This document shows, piece by piece, positions 1-20,476 of a stretch of DNA of 24,353 bases (the first letter of the stretch is position 1; every line of letters starts with the position of its first letter). The notes under the pieces are model-generated. The model was not told the origin of the DNA. It ran no database searches and saw nothing but the letters and a program-made list of their open reading frames with translations. A program made the translations under genes and the position numbers. The stretch comes from a virus, in the IMG/VR virus record IMGVR_UViG_3300037847_000384, positions 1 through 24,353 of that record; one strand, given 5' to 3'.

Positions 1-227
1 TCATCTATTTGTTCCCACCATTTAGGAATCATCAATTTTTTCTGATCCTTAACTTCGAAGTGAAATTGATATGCAGCAGAATCAGGATTTATATCTATAA
101 TGTCCCCTTTAATTGACATTCCACCTGATTGGGGTGTTCGTCTTACATTCGTTCCTAAGTATTTATTTATTAGTTTAGCAACTTCTCGTTCTGCTCTTTT
201 GCCTTTGGCTTGTGAATTTATTGGCAT
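1..227 (-). CDS. PDDEXK nuclease, Holliday-junction-resolvase-like (partial, C-terminus outside window)
   Basis: Seventy-five residues are visible before the frame leaves the window. They read MPINSQAKGKRAEREVAKLI, then RRTPQSGG, GDIIDI and FHFEVKDQKK. The glutamate in the first helix, the aspartate of GDI and the E-x-K of EVK are the spacing expected of the PDDEXK nuclease fold, and the RTP-SGG loop is typical of phage Holliday-junction resolvase or VRR-NUC-like enzymes. Such enzymes cleave branched DNA during recombination, replication or before packaging. The ATG is preceded by AAAGGA about six bases upstream. It lies in the same leftward block as the SSB-like protein, which fits a recombination/replication role. 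The fold is well supported; the exact substrate is inferred, and the missing C-terminus could hold further domains. Confidence 0.75.
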   Translation of the reverse strand, partial: MPINSQAKGKRAEREVAKLINKYLGTNVRRTPQSGGMSIKGDIIDINPDSAAYQFHFEVKDQKKLMIPKWWEQID

Positions 228-313
228 ATTGATCCTTTTAGGAGAAAGGGACAACTACTATTCGATTGTGATATGTTAATTAAACAAAAGAGTATAAGAA
301 GTAGTTGCCCCAT
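218..313 (-). CDS. Possible 31-residue hydrophobic peptide
   Basis: A short frame starts with ATG eight bases after the stop of the preceding 33-residue frame and is preceded by AAAGGAAAAA, a credible ribosome site. It begins MGQLLLILFCLINISQ, which looks like a signal or membrane segment, and ends CPFLLKGSICQ, overlapping the nuclease start by ten bases in another frame. A leader-peptide role (coupling translation into the nuclease) or a small membrane protein are both possible. It could also be chance, because its first codons form one arm of an inverted repeat. Confidence 0.35.
   Translation of the reverse strand: MGQLLLILFCLINISQSNSSCPFLLKGSICQ
248..311. repeat. Imperfect inverted repeat upstream of nuclease gene
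   Basis: Arms at 248-259 (GGGACAACTACT) and 300-311 (AGTAGTTGCCCC) are complementary at 11 of 12 positions, with a 40-base loop. On leftward mRNA it would form just before the nuclease ribosome site (about 234-239) and would include the ATG of the 31-residue frame. It could be an RNA hairpin modulating translation, a protein-binding site, or chance. Confidence 0.4.
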
Positions 314-321
314 TTTTTCCT

Positions 322-423
322 TTAAAGTAATATTAGCCCCACAAACATAATTCCAAATAATGAAACTGACAAGAAAACAACTAACAATAAAAGCATTATT
401 ATTATGTGTTCGTTAGTCATCAT
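322..423 (-). CDS. 33-residue single-pass membrane peptide
   Basis: The ATG overlaps the stop of the SSB-like gene as TAATG, the same coupling used throughout the window, so the frame is probably translated. The product begins MMTNEHIIIMLLLLVVFLSV and continues with a further hydrophobic stretch to LILL-stop. It is therefore almost entirely one transmembrane helix after a short polar N-terminus. I do not recognise a family. Small membrane peptides are common in phage early regions, and no function can be assigned. Confidence 0.55.
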   Translation of the reverse strand: MMTNEHIIIMLLLLVVFLSVSLFGIMFVGLILL

Positions 424-1088
424 TAGAATGGTAGTTCGTCATCATCAATTTGTACTGGTTCTGTAGTGTTGTCAATCACACTTTGCTTATAATCATCTAC
501 TCTTTGCTTTTGTTCTAAATAATCAACATCTTGTGGTGTTCCAGTTTTTCCTTCACATGCTTCCACCCAAGATTCCACTCGCTTAAAGTTTTGAACAAAC
601 TCAGGAGTAGTCCAAGATTGACCATTTTCAATAAACAATCGTACACAATTATTGAAAATCATTCCAAATCTTGCACCATTAGTAAAGGTACTATTGGTAG
701 TATTAACTTGTTGTTTTAATGCTTTGTCTTTTTGAAGTTGTTGTTCAAACTCGTTTACACTTTTCTTTACATTTTCAAATTGAGGATTAGCAGATTCTTT
801 GCTTACCTTTTCAACTTTCCAATAATTACGAAGTTGTCCTTCATTAGTAGTAAATTGTTCCCAACTTAACAAGAAGTCATCTCCAGTTGATATAAGATCA
901 AGTTTCCTTTTAAGTGAATCAGTAGCATCTAATGTTAATTGTTTACCATCTTCTAATACTTCATACTTGAAGGTATTAAACTTCTTACCTTGCCATTCTT
1001 TTTCTTCGTAGACACCACTTGAATTTAAAGTCAATCTAAGTTGTCCACCTATGTTTGCTTTTAAGTCTTTTAAGTTTACAAAAGCCAT
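423..1088 (-). CDS. Single-stranded DNA-binding protein (SSB-like)
   Basis: This 221-residue protein would coat single-stranded DNA during phage replication and recombination. The evidence is architecture: an N-terminal half (about 1-100) with alternating strands compatible with an OB fold (LTLNSSGVYEEKEWQGKKF, then FKYEVLEDGKQLTLDATDS), a linker, a helical section (about 105-185), and an acidic tip ending DDDELPF. That tip is the hallmark SSB C-terminus used to recruit partners such as helicases and nucleases. It is longer than bacterial SSB-family average, like several phage versions. It starts after AGGAG nine bases downstream of the 74-residue gene, and a PDDEXK nuclease lies in the same leftward block. 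A recombination mediator with an SSB-like tail is the main alternative. Confidence 0.72.
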   Translation of the reverse strand: MAFVNLKDLKANIGGQLRLTLNSSGVYEEKEWQGKKFNTFKYEVLEDGKQLTLDATDSLKRKLDLISTGDDFLLSWEQFTTNEGQLRNYWKVEKVSKESANPQFENVKKSVNEFEQQLQKDKALKQQVNTTNSTFTNGARFGMIFNNCVRLFIENGQSWTTPEFVQNFKRVESWVEACEGKTGTPQDVDYLEQKQRVDDYKQSVIDNTTEPVQIDDDELPF

Positions 1089-1097
1089 TATTTTCTC

Positions 1098-1322
1098 CTA
1101 TTTAATGTGTTCGGCAGAAGTTGGATTGGGTAGTTTCCTAATGTTCTCATCAGGTCTTTTAGCCATTTCTTCTGCCAAACGATTTTTCTCATTTTCCACT
1201 TGTTCACGAATGGATCGTAAATCGTGTCTAAGTGTATTTTCATTATCATTGTCGATTCTATTTCGTTCCATTACTTCAATCAACAATTCTAATTCTTCTA
1301 AGGTAAATTTTATGAGTACCAT
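1098..1322 (-). CDS. Hypothetical 74-residue helical protein
   Basis: This protein is charged and mostly helical: KFTLEELELLIEVMERNR followed by heptad-like acidic and basic residues up to about residue 58, then a Pro/Asn-rich tail. A short coiled coil is likely. The ATG follows AAGGTGG about eight bases upstream and overlaps the end of the 28-residue frame by 13 bases; the SSB-like gene begins nine bases after its stop. I do not recognise the family. Its place at the head of the SSB operon suggests a role in early DNA metabolism or its control, which is inference from position only. Confidence 0.7.
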   Translation of the reverse strand: MVLIKFTLEELELLIEVMERNRIDNDNENTLRHDLRSIREQVENEKNRLAEEMAKRPDENIRKLPNPTSAEHIK

Positions 1323-1396
1323 TCTCTAACCACCTTTTTTAAAAATTCCCACATAACTATCATGTAGATAGTGTAAGCTATAATTTCTATGATCAT
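1310..1396 (-). CDS. 28-residue membrane/amphipathic peptide, first gene of leftward early operon
   Basis: A strong ribosome site (AAAGGAG, six bases before the ATG) precedes a frame reading MIIEIIAYTIYMIVMWEFL then a basic end, KKVVREWYS. It is a probable single membrane helix with a positively charged flank. It overlaps the next gene by 13 bases and lies about 30 bases downstream of the proposed leftward promoter start. It may be a real small protein or a leader that couples ribosomes into the 74-residue gene. No family is recognised. Confidence 0.5.
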   Translation of the reverse strand: MIIEIIAYTIYMIVMWEFLKKVVREWYS

Positions 1397-1431
1397 GATT
1401 TTTCTCCTTTGTCATTAACATATTTGAAAAC

Positions 1432-1461
1432 AACCTAAGTCTTTTTTTTTATTTAAGTCAA
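1432..1461 (-). promoter_or_regulatory. Candidate leftward sigma70-type promoter for SSB operon
   Basis: On the minus strand TTGACT (1456-1461) and TAGGTT (1432-1437) are separated by 18 bases containing an A-tract. Reading the -10 as TTAGGT instead gives a 17-base spacer. Transcription would start near 1425, about 30 bases before the first small gene. The -35 is good; the -10 keeps the important second A and last T but is otherwise weak. Confidence 0.5.
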
Positions 1462-1481
1462 GAATTATTTTGCTAATTCTT
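1460..1481. repeat. Perfect 8-bp inverted repeat beside the leftward promoter
   Basis: AAGAATTA (1460-1467) and TAATTCTT (1474-1481) flank a six-base spacer and abut the -35 box of the leftward promoter. It could be an operator for a dimeric regulator. On the plus strand it is followed by a T-run (to 1488), so a weak terminator for rightward transcripts is an alternative, although the stem has almost no G or C. Confidence 0.45.
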
Positions 1482-1546
1482 TTTTTTTCTTATAATTCTT
1501 CTTATGCTTTAACTTTTTATTTATCTTTGTCTTTGTCTTTTTCTTG

Positions 1547-1635
1547 CACCCTTAGGGTAACCCTTTGATAAGACTTGATATCCACACACTTATCCACAAT
1601 TTGTGTATGATCCTACAACCCTTTATATAACCCTT
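1547..1635 (+). repeat. Paired ACCCTT direct repeats (iteron-like)
   Basis: CACCCTT at 1547 and AACCCTT at 1559, 1617 and 1629 form two pairs, each with exactly 12 bp between starts. The DnaA boxes lie between the two pairs. The first pair also brackets an inverted copy, giving ACCCT-T-AGGGT-A-ACCCT at 1548-1564. AAGACTTGA is also repeated at 1570-1578 and 1651-1659. Spacing near one helical turn suggests binding sites for a protein on one face of the DNA. Confidence 0.45.
1578..1598 (+). promoter_or_regulatory. Two DnaA-box-like sites
   Basis: TTATCCACA at 1590-1598 is a perfect match to the consensus DnaA box, and ATATCCACA at 1578-1586 differs at one base, 12 bp upstream in the same orientation. 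I noticed no other perfect copy in the window. Use by host DnaA is inferred. Confidence 0.5.
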
Positions 1636-1655
1636 AAAAATATTTTGGAAAAGAC

Positions 1656-1684
1656 TTGACTCTAATTGTATTAAGTGATATTTT
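1656..1684 (+). promoter_or_regulatory. Candidate rightward sigma70-type promoter
   Basis: TTGACT (1656-1661) and TATTTT (1679-1684) are separated by 17 bases, with transcription expected to start near 1691. That leaves a leader of about 26 bases before the ATG at 1717 of the only rightward gene. It is the best-spaced promoter seen in the window. Confidence 0.6.
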
Positions 1685-1716
1685 ATCTAATATGTTAAGT
1701 AAACATGGAGAAACAA

Positions 1717-2139
1717 ATGAATAAAGAAAATGTAAAAATAATGAATGAAATGTTTGAAGAAGCTTGTGGTGTTTTGTATTTATTTGGAAATGCTAACAGC
1801 GAACTTGTTCAATTTGAAGATGGTTCTTGGGGTGAAAACCCAAAGTGGCATGATAATCCTGAGGTGTATTTTAGAACACCTGAAGATATATTTAGAGAAT
1901 TAGAATACTTTATATATCGTAGCGATGAAATGTTTGATCCTAAAGAACACGAATCAGATGCTGTTGAATTAAAATTCTATAAACAGTTTCTAAAAAAATA
2001 TAAACATCTAAGAATCAAGGATAATAACTATTCACCCCTAACTGGTGTAAATACAAAACGATTTGATACTGGTCCTGATTCTACACCTTTGGACAAAAAA
2101 ATGAAAGTAATTTCATCGGTAAAAACTATGGTGGGTTAA
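1717..2139 (+). CDS. Hypothetical protein, lone rightward gene
   Basis: This is the only gene on the plus strand. The open frame allows an ATG at 1705, but GGAG at 1707-1710 lies six bases before the ATG at 1717, so the 140-residue form starting MNKENVKIMNEMFEEACGVL is preferred. It is acidic in the first two thirds, with aromatic-rich segments such as VYFRTPEDIFRELEYF, and ends in a basic tail. There is no signal peptide, membrane helix or recognisable DNA-binding motif, and I do not recognise the family. It has its own promoter, faces away from the replication operon, and is followed by a strong hairpin terminator. It therefore makes a single-gene transcript. An early host-takeover or regulatory role is only a guess from position. 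Confidence 0.75.
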   Translation: MNKENVKIMNEMFEEACGVLYLFGNANSELVQFEDGSWGENPKWHDNPEVYFRTPEDIFRELEYFIYRSDEMFDPKEHESDAVELKFYKQFLKKYKHLRIKDNNYSPLTGVNTKRFDTGPDSTPLDKKMKVISSVKTMVG

Positions 2140-3020: not shown

Positions 3021-5443
3021 TATACTTCCCTTGTTTGTATTGTAATTTTACCAACTTGTCTTTTTAAATTTGTTATGATGAACTTTTTACCACTCCAAGC
3101 ATCTTTAAATAATCTTGTAGGCATAGCAATAAAACTATCAAAGGTATCTGATATTTCATCAAATGGTGTTCCAAGTTCTGAAAATGTAATTTCACCAAAG
3201 TCTATGAAATCGCCTACTTGCAACATTGCATACTTTTCAGGATTTACTATAGTTGCACTTACAGTAGTTTTATATTCACCAAATAAACTTTTTCTAAAAT
3301 TAATCCAACTGGAATTTCTTGAACCTACTACATCATCTACTGCATCATAAAGTAAATCAAGATTGATTTCTTGTTTTTGAACATCGTTACTTCCAAAGAT
3401 AGTAGTATGAGTAGATGCTATAAAAGTATCTTTATCTTCATATTTATTTTCAGCAGGGTGTGGATTATAGTTTACTACCAAATTCGTTTCTAAATCTTGT
3501 GCAGGTGTAATACCAATCTCATAATCAGATATATCATTTTGTGATAAATCTACATCTGCAGTAACACTATCTTCAATAGTAAAATATCGTAAAGTTGAAG
3601 CACCTGATATTGTAGATGCTTGTTGTGCTTGTGGACTATATTGAAAAAAGAAACATCCTTCATATTGTAATTGTTCCATCACATCTTCTAATGAAGTTGG
3701 TTCATATAATGCTAATCGTGTTTTCCAATGAGTTGATGTTGGACTGGTTGTGGTAGAATCTCTTAATTCTGCTACACCCTTATATCCATTATTTAAATTA
3801 TCAGTATCTCCTGAATCTGAATTTATACCTACAAAATCTTTAATGACTTGTCTGTGAATTGATACAGGATTATTTAAATCATTATTTACTCCTGTGTGTC
3901 CATTGAAGTCTTTAGTAGTAATATCTTGTCCAATATATAGTTCACTAATATTAGCATTTGATTCTTGTTTAGCAATCGGTTCATCGTCAGTTGTTAATGC
4001 AGTAGTATAGGTTGCAAAGATACTATAAATTTTTAATGTTCCAACAAAGTTATCAAACTCAACTTCTCCACCTCCACCAGTACTATCTGCAAACAATCTA
4101 AAAGTTAATCTAAATCTATCTTGTATTTGTCCATTTTTAAATATATCTGCAAATTCAGTTGCATCGATACTTGTTGTTTGTGTGTTGATTGCTACATTTG
4201 AAGTATGGGCATTGTTAATTCCACTTCCTGCACTACCTTTAAAAAATTCTGCATTGGTTTCATCTGCTAAATTTGCACTTCCTGATAAATCGTCTGAATG
4301 TAAATATAATTTAAAACCTGAACCACTAAAACTACCTGAATTAGCATTACCTAAATCTACTGAGTATCGCATAGTAATATTAAATCCAGTAAGTTTGTGC
4401 ATTGGTTTTGGAAACTTTAAAAATATAGAAGCACCTGCATCTACATTAGAATCGCCTTGATCAGGATTGATTTCACCACTAATAGTAGCAAATGTAGAAT
4501 CGTCTACTGTTCCATCAGATTCTAAATCAAAAGCATTAGCCCCATTACTAAAAGTAGCAGATTCAAATTCTGTTTCACTAAACATAGATAATTCATTAAA
4601 GTTTTCATCAGTTAAATCATTAGGTAATACATTGAAATCTTTTACTATTTGACTATTGACTTCTACTGTTGTTCCACCACTTGTATCAGAAGGATTCAAA
4701 AGTTTTGATGTAGTTGTTGATGCAAATCCTGATTTAGTAAGTGGAATAAATCGTTGTACATTTTTATCATAAAATTCCATATTAACAATACTTGAAGTAT
4801 TATTAGCAATTTTATTAGGAAGTAAGAATACTAAATTATCATTGTCATTTCTAATAAAAGGAACTTTATAAAGATTATGTAGTTGCTTTGACAATACACT
4901 TCCTGACGAAGCACCATAATCTCCTAATACATAAGGAATATTAAACCCTGCAAAATCTCCTGTTGTTTTTGCTTGTGGTAATGATACATTTTGAAATGGT
5001 CTATTAGATATTAGATTCATAACGATTGTATTATTTCTATAACCAAAACTGGATACTTTACCACTAAAGATTTGTAAAGCATTGTTTGCAGTATTATCTC
5101 CATCTATTTGAGATAAAATATTAACTTGTCCATTAATATATTCGTTTCCTAATAATTCTAATAAAGTTGTTCCATCTAAATTTATATTAGCAAGATTTAA
5201 ATTTACTCCACCAGTTTTTGTTGTAAATCCTTTTAAATCCAATGAATAAGATATACTTGGTTTGTTAAGGATAGCAGGGTAATAATTTATGCTATTGTAA
5301 GTAGTGGCAGAAAAACTAAATGCTAAATCAGGAGTATTAGTTGTTAAGATACTTGAATTATTATTTTTAAATATCTGCACTAACCAGTTTTCAGTCATGG
5401 TTGGTGATAACTTTGATGAATAATTAGAGTTAGTAAAACTCAT
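3020..5443 (-). CDS. Large tail protein, probable tail hub / tip protein
   Basis: This 807-residue protein opens with MTENWLVQIFKNN and an IFSGKVSSFGYRNN region, continues with a long Ser/Thr/Asn-rich middle (about 230-500), and ends with a beta-rich section. The end includes VSATIVNPEKYAMLQVGDFIDF, a Trp-containing WSGKKFIITNLKRQVG and TIQTREV. A C-terminus describing surface strands and a final ITNLKR...ITIQTRE strand is typical of central tail hub or tail-tip proteins such as lambda gpJ-like and marine phage hub proteins. Its place downstream of the tape measure is also where tip proteins lie. The start overlaps the DUF5872-like gene by ATGA. It may contact the host surface, but the fibre with the S74 domain lies elsewhere in the operon. 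Structural role fairly sure; hub assignment tentative. Confidence 0.62.
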   Translation of the reverse strand: MSFTNSNYSSKLSPTMTENWLVQIFKNNNSSILTTNTPDLAFSFSATTYNSINYYPAILNKPSISYSLDLKGFTTKTGGVNLNLANINLDGTTLLELLGNEYINGQVNILSQIDGDNTANNALQIFSGKVSSFGYRNNTIVMNLISNRPFQNVSLPQAKTTGDFAGFNIPYVLGDYGASSGSVLSKQLHNLYKVPFIRNDNDNLVFLLPNKIANNTSSIVNMEFYDKNVQRFIPLTKSGFASTTTSKLLNPSDTSGGTTVEVNSQIVKDFNVLPNDLTDENFNELSMFSETEFESATFSNGANAFDLESDGTVDDSTFATISGEINPDQGDSNVDAGASIFLKFPKPMHKLTGFNITMRYSVDLGNANSGSFSGSGFKLYLHSDDLSGSANLADETNAEFFKGSAGSGINNAHTSNVAINTQTTSIDATEFADIFKNGQIQDRFRLTFRLFADSTGGGGEVEFDNFVGTLKIYSIFATYTTALTTDDEPIAKQESNANISELYIGQDITTKDFNGHTGVNNDLNNPVSIHRQVIKDFVGINSDSGDTDNLNNGYKGVAELRDSTTTSPTSTHWKTRLALYEPTSLEDVMEQLQYEGCFFFQYSPQAQQASTISGASTLRYFTIEDSVTADVDLSQNDISDYEIGITPAQDLETNLVVNYNPHPAENKYEDKDTFIASTHTTIFGSNDVQKQEINLDLLYDAVDDVVGSRNSSWINFRKSLFGEYKTTVSATIVNPEKYAMLQVGDFIDFGEITFSELGTPFDEISDTFDSFIAMPTRLFKDAWSGKKFIITNLKRQVGKITIQTREV

Positions 5444-5829
5444 GTATATCTCCTAATTCGTTTGGTTGTTCGTTTTGAATATTTAGCAGATTGCTTTCCT
5501 TTTTTAGTTGCTGCTCGTTTTTTTCTTGTTTCATAAGCATATTGTGATGAACTCATAGACTTAATTAATCTTTCAGGTAGATATCTTTCACCAGTCTTCG
5601 ATGATTTCTTTCCTGACTTAGTAGTCCATTTTTGTTTAGTCCATCTGCTAAGGGCTTTAGCTGCTTTGGTTTTTCTACCACGATAACCACCACCTGCTTT
5701 TTCGTATGCCTTTACAAGAAGTTGTGATTTTCTTGCAGACCATTGTCCAGGCCTACCACCTTTAGAACCTCGCATAATGCGATTTTTAATTCGTTCTCTT
5801 AATTTAGGTTTGGTAAAATGTTTTGACAT
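5440..5829 (-). CDS. DUF5872-like small basic protein
   Basis: This 129-residue, very basic protein contains the blocks RERIKNRIMRGSKGGRPGQW, SARKSQLLVKAYEKAGGGY, LSRWTKQKWTTKSGK and RYLPERLIKSM. From memory these match the domain called DUF5872, found in phages and in large DNA viruses and algae. Its biochemical function is unknown. The C-terminal 35 residues are mostly Lys/Arg (KKRAATKKGKQSAKYSKRTT), suggesting binding to nucleic acid or acidic surfaces. It sits between the thioredoxin-like protein (TAATG) and the tail hub (ATGA). A role in packing DNA inside the head or entering the host with DNA would be inference. Confidence 0.72.
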   Translation of the reverse strand: MSKHFTKPKLRERIKNRIMRGSKGGRPGQWSARKSQLLVKAYEKAGGGYRGRKTKAAKALSRWTKQKWTTKSGKKSSKTGERYLPERLIKSMSSSQYAYETRKKRAATKKGKQSAKYSKRTTKRIRRYT

Positions 5830-6209
5830 TATTGTCCAATCTCCCTTCTTATGCTATTTAGGATTTCATCTTCTCTAAATTTCATAGAAAGGTCTGCTTC
5901 AAATCGTTTTACCTCTACACCATATTCAAATATGATAATGGTAGGTACTACTTTGATGTCCCATTCTTTTTGAATGACTGCACCTATGTTTTTGTTGGCA
6001 AGATCAACATATCCAGTATAGCATTTGTCTATCTTTTCTAATGGTATTTTATTAGCCCAATTCCATGATGCATTGACTTCTATTACAGCACAAAATTCGT
6101 TTTTCATTAACTGAATATCTTGGAAATTATCCAAATTGACTGATTGCGAGTACAGCCAAGAAGTAGATAGTCCAAGCCATATACACAATGATAGTATCCA
6201 TTTTTTCAT
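5829..6209 (-). CDS. Secreted thioredoxin-fold protein lacking the CxxC motif
   Basis: This 126-residue protein has a clear signal peptide (MKKWILSLCIWLGLSTSWLYSQ, cleavage near residue 22). It then carries a thioredoxin-like core: AVIEVNASWNW at the position of the active-site strand, and VVPTIIIFEYGVEVKRF, where the Pro at about 89 is the usual cis-proline before the beta hairpin. The expected WCxxC is replaced by SWNWANK, so redox chemistry by the classical mechanism is unlikely; cysteines remain at about 40 and 63. A periplasmic binding or chaperone role is plausible. It lies between a membrane/coiled-coil gene and the DUF5872-like gene inside the tail cluster, coupled to the latter by TAATG. 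It could act on tail proteins or on the host envelope. Confidence 0.72.
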   Translation of the reverse strand: MKKWILSLCIWLGLSTSWLYSQSVNLDNFQDIQLMKNEFCAVIEVNASWNWANKIPLEKIDKCYTGYVDLANKNIGAVIQKEWDIKVVPTIIIFEYGVEVKRFEADLSMKFREDEILNSIRREIGQ

Positions 6210-19618: not shown

Positions 19619-20476
19619 TTATGAAGCATTCTTGAAATTGACAATTCCACCTAAAGCATTTTCTTCAGGGTGTGATAGTGTTGCACCAAACAACATATCA
19701 ACCACAACTGAAGTTGCTAAGTGGTCAATGTCATAAGCACTTTGACTTCTTACGCCAAATTGCTCAGCATAGTAAACTGATTCTCTTTTAAATACAGAAC
19801 CTGAGATATTTACTCCACCTTCAGACCAGTCGGTTGAAGGATATACTGGCATACCATAGATTTCAATTACTGAACCTGAAGCGATAGGATTTATTGTATC
19901 TCCTCTTTTTTGTGCTTCAGTAAAATCACCTTGTCCTAATAAGCCCATATATGCTTTTGGATTAGCATAGAAGAAAGTATCTCCATCTGTGTAATCGTAG
20001 TTTTGATCTAATAGTAGTTCAAGTCCACTTCTTAGTTCTGCTGGTAAGATGATGTCATCTGTAGCCAAAGTTACTAAGTTTTGTGTGTGTCCTTGGATTT
20101 TACCTGCTAAGTATGCTTCTACACCTTTAGCCAAAGAATAACCCATTGAACTTGCATATACTTCAAATAAGGATTGATTTGATTGCACATTTGCAATATC
20201 TTCAATTCTTTTTGCTTCGTAGATATGTTGGTCAAGAGGGATTGTTCTTGATGTATCTGTGTTAGCATCATAAGTTACAGCAGAATCTGCTGACTTATCT
20301 CTTTTTGTATCTTCCTTGACTTGTGGAATATTGATTCTGTCAACACCAGTTGCAAGTGCAGAAAAATCAGTAATCTGATTTCTTAATTGCATTCTTTTTT
20401 GTGCAAATTCTAAGACAGCATCTGACCACATTTCACCAAGAAAAACATCTGTTGTTGTTTTTGTTACATTAGCCAT
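19619..20476 (-). CDS. Major capsid protein (HK97 fold)
   Basis: This 285-residue protein builds the head. It begins MANVTKTTTDVFLGEMWSDA, continues QLRNQITDFSALATGVDRIN, and has DQHIYEAKRIEDIANVQSNQ, followed by a long spine-type helix (FEVYASSMGYSLAKGVEAYL). It ends with FKRESVYYAEQFGVRSQSAY and VVVDMLFGATLSHPEENALG. The pattern, with the VG/ID element and the late Arg/Phe-containing strand, matches HK97-fold coat proteins of marine phages. It follows the scaffold gene with an AAAGGGG ribosome site 26 bases downstream, and a hairpin follows its stop. No separate prohead protease is visible in the head block, consistent with scaffold-assisted assembly without HK97-type cleavage. Confidence 0.88.
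   Translation of the reverse strand: MANVTKTTTDVFLGEMWSDAVLEFAQKRMQLRNQITDFSALATGVDRINIPQVKEDTKRDKSADSAVTYDANTDTSRTIPLDQHIYEAKRIEDIANVQSNQSLFEVYASSMGYSLAKGVEAYLAGKIQGHTQNLVTLATDDIILPAELRSGLELLLDQNYDYTDGDTFFYANPKAYMGLLGQGDFTEAQKRGDTINPIASGSVIEIYGMPVYPSTDWSEGGVNISGSVFKRESVYYAEQFGVRSQSAYDIDHLATSVVVDMLFGATLSHPEENALGGIVNFKNAS

Follow-up and report, generated by a model that had tools for sequence, protein, structure and literature searches.

The locus and its phage

The window, that is the whole 24,353-base stretch of DNA analysed here, is the virus record of an uncultivated phage in which nearly all genes run leftward. Starting at the right edge, these are the terminase, a portal-sized gene, the capsid, tape measure and tail genes and the endolysin. 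After the endolysin gene the order is broken at 2246–1323 and then continues with the 28-aa gene (g28), the gene of a conserved 74-aa protein (g74), an SSB-like gene and a RusA-like resolvase. The features of this region are listed in Table 1. Relatives from IMG/VR supply the part missing from the window, which comprises methyltransferases, a Cas4-like exonuclease, a winged-helix protein of 119–121 aa, a sigma-region-4-like regulator and the terminase. The ends of a 30,424-base relative overlap each other with 121 of 123 bases identical, which indicates a complete genome of ~30.2 kb. The window is a member of an uncultivated phage family with genomes of ~30 kb and without an isolate relative: the SSB-like and portal proteins have no match in 50,697 phage records, the putative origin interval as DNA has none in these or among 72,556 records of plasmids, and the terminase shares no more than ~37% identity with named phages. 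Scans of genome contigs with TerL and with the SSB-like protein gave no relative and hence no pointer to the host. Identities of ~25% between the capsid protein (19619–20476, minus strand) and cyanobacterial podophages, and of 26% between the winged-helix protein (L004, 8871–9227) and the N-terminus of Pan5_50 from the Pseudanabaena phage Pan5, are too low to assign a host. Among the tail genes, 5829–6209 on the minus strand encodes a protein that has a signal peptide and weakly matches thioredoxin. An Rfam search of the window returned no match, so that no known structured RNA accounts for the region under study.

The preliminary description had taken the immediate leftward neighbours of the interval for SSB-like and resolvase-like genes, and both the OB-fold and the RusA-like assignments are confirmed. 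The N-terminal OB-like barrel of the SSB-like protein matches RPA/SSB structures (Foldseek probability 0.97–1.0, E about 1e-3) and its acidic D-x-LPF end is invariant, while profile searches gave no sequence-family match for this protein. No polymerase, helicase or primase was recognised among the ORF translations listed for three relatives of 29–30 kb, as judged by reading the translations, with a profile scan covering some of the ORFs.

Table 1. Features of the putative origin region and its neighbours (window coordinates)
Feature	Position	Strand	Remarks
RusA-like / PDDEXK_15 Holliday-junction resolvase	3..254	-	cut by the left end of the record
SSB-like OB-fold protein	423..1088	-	invariant acidic D-x-LPF tip
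74-aa conserved protein (g74)	1098..1322	-	
28-aa ORF, predicted membrane peptide	1310..1396	-	first gene of the leftward operon; Shine–Dalgarno site
Leftward promoter	-35 TTGACT 1461-1456; -10 TTAGGT 1438-1433	-	17 bp spacing; read by eye
A-rich triplet (NAN)n tract, candidate unwinding element	1477..1546	-	phased runs 1514-1546 and 1477-1509
Repeat pair ACCCTT..ACCCTT, type A	1548..1565	+	starts 1548 and 1560, 12 bp apart; AAGGGTTA on minus strand; candidate initiator sites
AAGACTTGA copies	1570 and 1651		-35 of the rightward promoter contained in one copy; the other adjoins a DnaA box
Box 2, one-mismatch DnaA box ATATCCACA	1578..1586	+	adjoins the repeats; start distance to box 1 = 12
Box 1, perfect DnaA box TTATCCACA	1590..1598	+	distal to the repeats
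Second ACCCTT pair	1618..1635	+	starts 1618 and 1630, 12 bp apart; other side of the boxes
Rightward promoter TTGACT-17-TATTTT	1656..1684	+	consensus scan
Accessory 144-aa ORF	1705..2139	+	on the rightward promoter; other genes there in most relatives

Layout and conservation of the interval

The elements from which an origin had been proposed, a perfect DnaA box with a one-mismatch copy 12 away, two ACCCTT pairs and a repeated AAGACTTGA, are all present as described. The interval had also been called non-coding, which holds for most of it; the 28-aa ORF on the minus strand had been missed, and the gap starts near 1410. Homologues of this small gene lie directly downstream of the interval across the relatives. 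A promoter had been claimed on each side. The rightward one was recovered by a consensus scan, and the leftward one was read by eye and missed by the scan; a TTGACA occurs at the same place in many relatives. The accessory gene behind the rightward promoter probably starts at 1717 rather than 1705; its ribosome-binding site would be the GGAG at 1707. At 1705–2246 and at the matching place in the relatives, the interval is bordered on either side by accessory genes that differ in nearly all cases, and many of them share similar leaders (GTTAGTTAAACAAAGGAG), as if this were an insertion hotspot.

Approximately 190 bp around 1435–1640 form a conserved island in about 30 relatives, set between unlike flanks. 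In 13 diverse representatives, the boxes, repeats and tract have a pairwise identity of 69–74%, compared to 51–53% for random pieces, whereas the flanks (~300 bases on each side) are 57–59% identical and random pieces 56%. That the flanks are no more alike than random DNA is explained by the different accessory genes which occupy these positions. Read leftward, the order in the relatives is an optional AAGGGTTA pair, TGTGGATAA, a gap of 3 bp or about 11–13 bp, a second TGTGGATAA, the repeats, the A-rich tract and the TTGACA promoter. The box pair is conserved in nearly all relatives with data, down to ~50% SSB identity. In L245 (about 4480–4700) the orientation of the whole module, including the 28-aa gene, is reversed with respect to the ssb operon.

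One might ask whether the tandem TTATCCACA boxes are simply a coincidence in an AT-rich region without special function, since lone boxes with one mismatch show no enrichment across the window (5 found, 10 expected). However, when the window was shuffled 300 times with its dinucleotide content preserved, neither the box pair nor four ACCCTT within 100 bp ever arose, and the pair is kept between flanks that are not homologous. This conservation refutes a chance origin of the boxes, to which we give practically no weight.

The same comparison bears on two findings that would have spoken against an origin. Boxes lost from close relatives that keep the flanking genes were not found; it is the boxes that are kept and the flanks that are replaced. 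Nor did we find a clear origin elsewhere, as the box pair was present in 20 of 32 relatives, each time at a single place in the record. With all core genes in one direction, the GC skew carries no origin signal; it keeps the same sign all round the complete relative, with only a local dip at the reverse accessory genes.

The DnaA boxes

In the relatives box 1 is mostly TTATCCACA or TTATACACA, with some forms carrying one or two mismatches; four lineages have TTATACACA, which also fits the DnaA consensus, in place of TTATCCACA, and in the distant relatives L237 and L241 the box is inverted. Box 2 is a perfect TTATCCACA in all relatives of the box-bearing clades that were examined, except the window itself and L004, an invariance slightly favoured by construction because box 2 itself helped in finding the places. 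Start-to-start spacing of the boxes is 12 or 20–22 bp. The full records searched for TTATNCACA-N(3–12)-TTATNCACA, which gave the single places mentioned above, contained no instance of the reversed control pattern (0 of 32). The boxes conserved in this way conform to an E. coli-type consensus that may not be that of the phage host.

A single clade departs from this pattern. L246, L248 and L250 contain no TTATNCACA anywhere in their three records, one of which is 33 kb long, so that DnaA binding is not universal in the family. At the corresponding position (L246 1941–2240, L248 6547–6850, L250 around 2600–2900) they have a CAGTATTAATACTG-like palindrome and TGTACACA, and the triplet tract is kept. 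The box-less clade suggests that DnaA can be dispensed with, and it raises the question of whether the origin, although real, could be independent of DnaA in practice, the initiator and the tract being sufficient and the boxes serving to tune initiation or to titrate or sense host DnaA. Such an arrangement would fit the persistence of the tract in these three relatives and of a winged-helix homologue in L246 and L248, and several iteron plasmids need DnaA in some hosts only (PMC4980987). On the other hand, all other lineages with data retain the box pair and box 2 is almost invariant, and we regard independence from DnaA as possible but rather improbable.

Tandem TTATCCACA-N3-TTATCCACA pairs are also common in unrelated viral contigs, with at least 125 cases (loci L044–L163); among the matches listed, 82 of 125 lie outside ORFs of ≥80 aa. 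Many of these pairs may represent DnaA-dependent origins or DnaA-sensing promoters.

Repeats change in step with a winged-helix protein

The repeats next to box 2 exist in three types. Type A consists of AAGGGTTA or its complement at a spacing of ~12 bp, type B of GTAGGGGGTAC or its complement with likewise 12 bp, and type C, found in L246 and L248, is the CAGTATTAATACTG-like element without boxes. The second ACCCTT pair is present in many relatives and absent or reduced in L003, L007, L015, L018 and L020–L026. In L020, L021 and L031 a 26-bp block of type-B repeats beside the boxes is precisely inverted with respect to the close relatives L022–L024.

Several genes recombine freely among the relatives. 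The repeat type was compared with individual gene trees. On the tree of the winged-helix protein the repeat type changes twice, which is the minimum for three types. On seven other gene trees (the right-end tail gene, g74, ssb, the exonuclease, the sigma-like gene and two neighbouring small genes, one of which sits just downstream of the winged-helix gene) it requires 4–6 changes, close to the values for shuffled labels. The covariation is drawn from small numbers of B-type and C-type genomes, five and two respectively. Individual recombinants follow the same rule. L027 carries a B-clade exonuclease (100%), sigma-like gene and g74, yet has an A-type winged helix together with A-type repeats. 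L022 and L023 have an A-like exonuclease but a B-type winged helix and B-type repeats. The winged helix of the distant L204 groups with B (support 0.994) and its repeats are B-like. The joint change of the repeats with a single small protein indicates that the latter, the winged-helix protein, is probably the phage origin-recognition factor, and the tree covariation together with the recombinants is the strongest evidence for its recognising the repeats.

In the relatives the winged-helix gene lies 3–4.5 kb downstream of the putative origin, which places it outside the fragment covered by the window; from the type-A repeats of the window, a type-A protein is predicted for its phage. An AlphaFold2 model (pLDDT 90) has the H-E-H-H-E-E-H-H arrangement of a winged helix. 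Pfam profiles gave no match above the cut-off. Of 19 members, 9 weakly match phrog_3926, annotated as replication initiation protein (best E 0.0034), and 3 weakly match phrog_186, which is DnaD-like (best E 0.14). A structure search returned generic winged-helix matches only (Z up to 5.3, the best being CRP-like); plasmid initiators are found at this generic level, including RepA_N-type structures with Z 4.2–4.6, and DnaD is not listed, which does not argue against a relationship. The protein has no obvious helicase-binding domain. It is the best candidate for the initiator that the comparison of these genomes offers.

The A-rich triplet tract

The pyrimidine-rich AT tract noted in the preliminary description is indeed there, but it is better read on the minus strand, as an array of A-rich triplets (for example CAA GAA AAA GAC AAA GAC AAA GAT AAA TAA AAA). 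NAN runs of 9 to 22 triplets occur in most relatives, and their excess over dinucleotide shuffles is clearest in the divergent L203, L204 and L208 (0 of 2000); for the run of 11 in the window p is about 0.10, and the excess is absent in some close relatives too. The triplets vary between lineages (GAC AAA, CAT AAA, GAA AAA) while the middle A is constant. An in-frame TAA sits at different places among the relatives, and these shifting stops led us to reject a coding function. With triplets that vary, a middle A that stays and stops that shift, neither coding nor a frozen microsatellite fully explains the tract. Of all 70-mers in the window it ranks within the least stable 2% and is thus predicted to melt easily. 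Among the 125 box pairs listed, a triplet run on that side of the boxes was seen only in this family.

It has to be considered that the interval could be nothing but a divergent regulatory region, in which boxes and repeats act as operators, DnaA or the winged-helix protein as a transcription factor, and replication starts elsewhere. Two divergent promoters do flank the boxes and repeats, winged-helix proteins are mostly transcription factors (the top structural matches being CRP-like), and DnaA is known as a gene regulator. However, the elements lie ~100 bp from the leftward -35 with the conserved triplet tract in between, which a simple operator does not need, and they stay in place while the genes on both promoters are freely replaced. 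The inversion in L245 also uncouples the module from the ssb operon, although it retains its own promoter and the 28-aa gene, and no other candidate origin was seen. We therefore consider a purely regulatory role unlikely.

A model for initiation

The proposal of a candidate replication origin at this locus is supported by the conservation and covariation seen in the relatives. Our preferred reading is that of an origin of this phage family, of the iteron-plasmid or lambda type and served by a phage initiator together with host DnaA, for which we estimate a probability of roughly 0.78. It builds on genome comparison, which reveals a conserved module with DnaA-consensus boxes, repeats covarying with a winged-helix protein, an SSB-like OB fold with an acidic tip, and no recognisable replisome genes. 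From this we infer that DnaA and the initiator would bind, the tract melt, the helicase be loaded and replication start at the interval. Host DnaA would bind the box pair and the small winged-helix initiator the adjoining repeats spaced 12 bp. Together they could open the adjacent A-rich triplet tract, where the host helicase and replisome would be loaded, and the phage SSB-like protein may coat the exposed strand. Early proteins would be made from the leftward promoter beside the tract, and its transcription may help opening.

Few phage origins are known beyond the model phages, and no phage of the present family is in culture. Lineages that have naturally exchanged repeats along with the winged-helix protein could pinpoint an origin-recognition protein from sequence alone and would supply matched pairs of differing specificity. 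The contribution of DnaA to origin opening could in turn be compared directly between lineages that have DnaA boxes and those that lack them. The triplet tract would test whether trinucleotide recognition of single strands is a general feature of origins, beyond chromosomes.

Comparison with known origins

Our search of the literature for phage origins combining DnaA boxes with a winged-helix initiator yielded reviews on plasmids and lambda and no report of this family. Among the closest parallels are plasmid RK2 oriV and P1 oriR, where an initiator of winged-helix type, specific to the replicon, works with host DnaA as a helper (PMC4980987, PMC5043065), as is proposed here. In RK2 oriV, DnaA boxes are followed by the initiator repeats and an A+T-rich unwinding element (PMC4980987), and the phage interval has the same order. 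It differs in that its repeats measure 6–11 bp, in two to four copies at ~12 bp, compared to iterons of 17–22 bp in RK2 and P1, and that it has two DnaA boxes where RK2 has four. The candidate initiator is a single winged helix of 119–121 aa encoded 3–4.5 kb away, in contrast to the two-winged-helix Rep proteins encoded beside the RK2 and P1 origins.

With lambda ori the interval would share a phage initiator, a repeat array, an adjoining easily melted tract, a nearby promoter and the use of the host replisome (PMC5043065). In lambda, however, the origin forms part of gene O, with inverted repeats of 19 bp as iterons (PMC5043065), unlike the repeats described here. Also unlike lambda, no P-like helicase loader was recognised and the interval has a DnaA box pair of its own. 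Staphylococcal RepA_N initiators resemble the phage protein in having a winged-helix origin-binding domain of ~120 aa, DnaD-like in the plasmids, that varies modularly with the origin (PMC5703833). These plasmids differ by a C-terminal DnaG-binding domain, an origin inside the gene and the lack of reported DnaA boxes (PMC5703833).

The basal unwinding system of bacterial chromosomes combines DnaA boxes with DnaA-trios, and the strand opposite bears a DnaD recognition element (PMC8287927, PMC10201434). It requires a box followed, on the correct side and within 0–16 bp, by at least three DnaA-trios (PMC8287927, PMC10201434, PMC6669920). Membership of the phage interval was rejected, as its NAN run is on the opposite side of the boxes, ~38 nt away and with the repeats in between; on the canonical side, some A-type origins have three weak triplets, read by eye, and B-type origins none. 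The phage triplet run also persists in the box-less clade, unlike that of the basal unwinding system. Common to both are a 3-bp gap between tandem DnaA boxes and an extended array of triplets whose central base is A, reading TnnT on the complement (PMC8287927, PMC10201434). We tentatively suggest, with more doubt than confidence, that the triplet array might be a single-strand recognition element, a mirror-orientation phage counterpart of the DnaA-trio/DnaD recognition element, which would be read by a one-domain winged-helix initiator that cooperates with host DnaA and, in one clade, replaces it.
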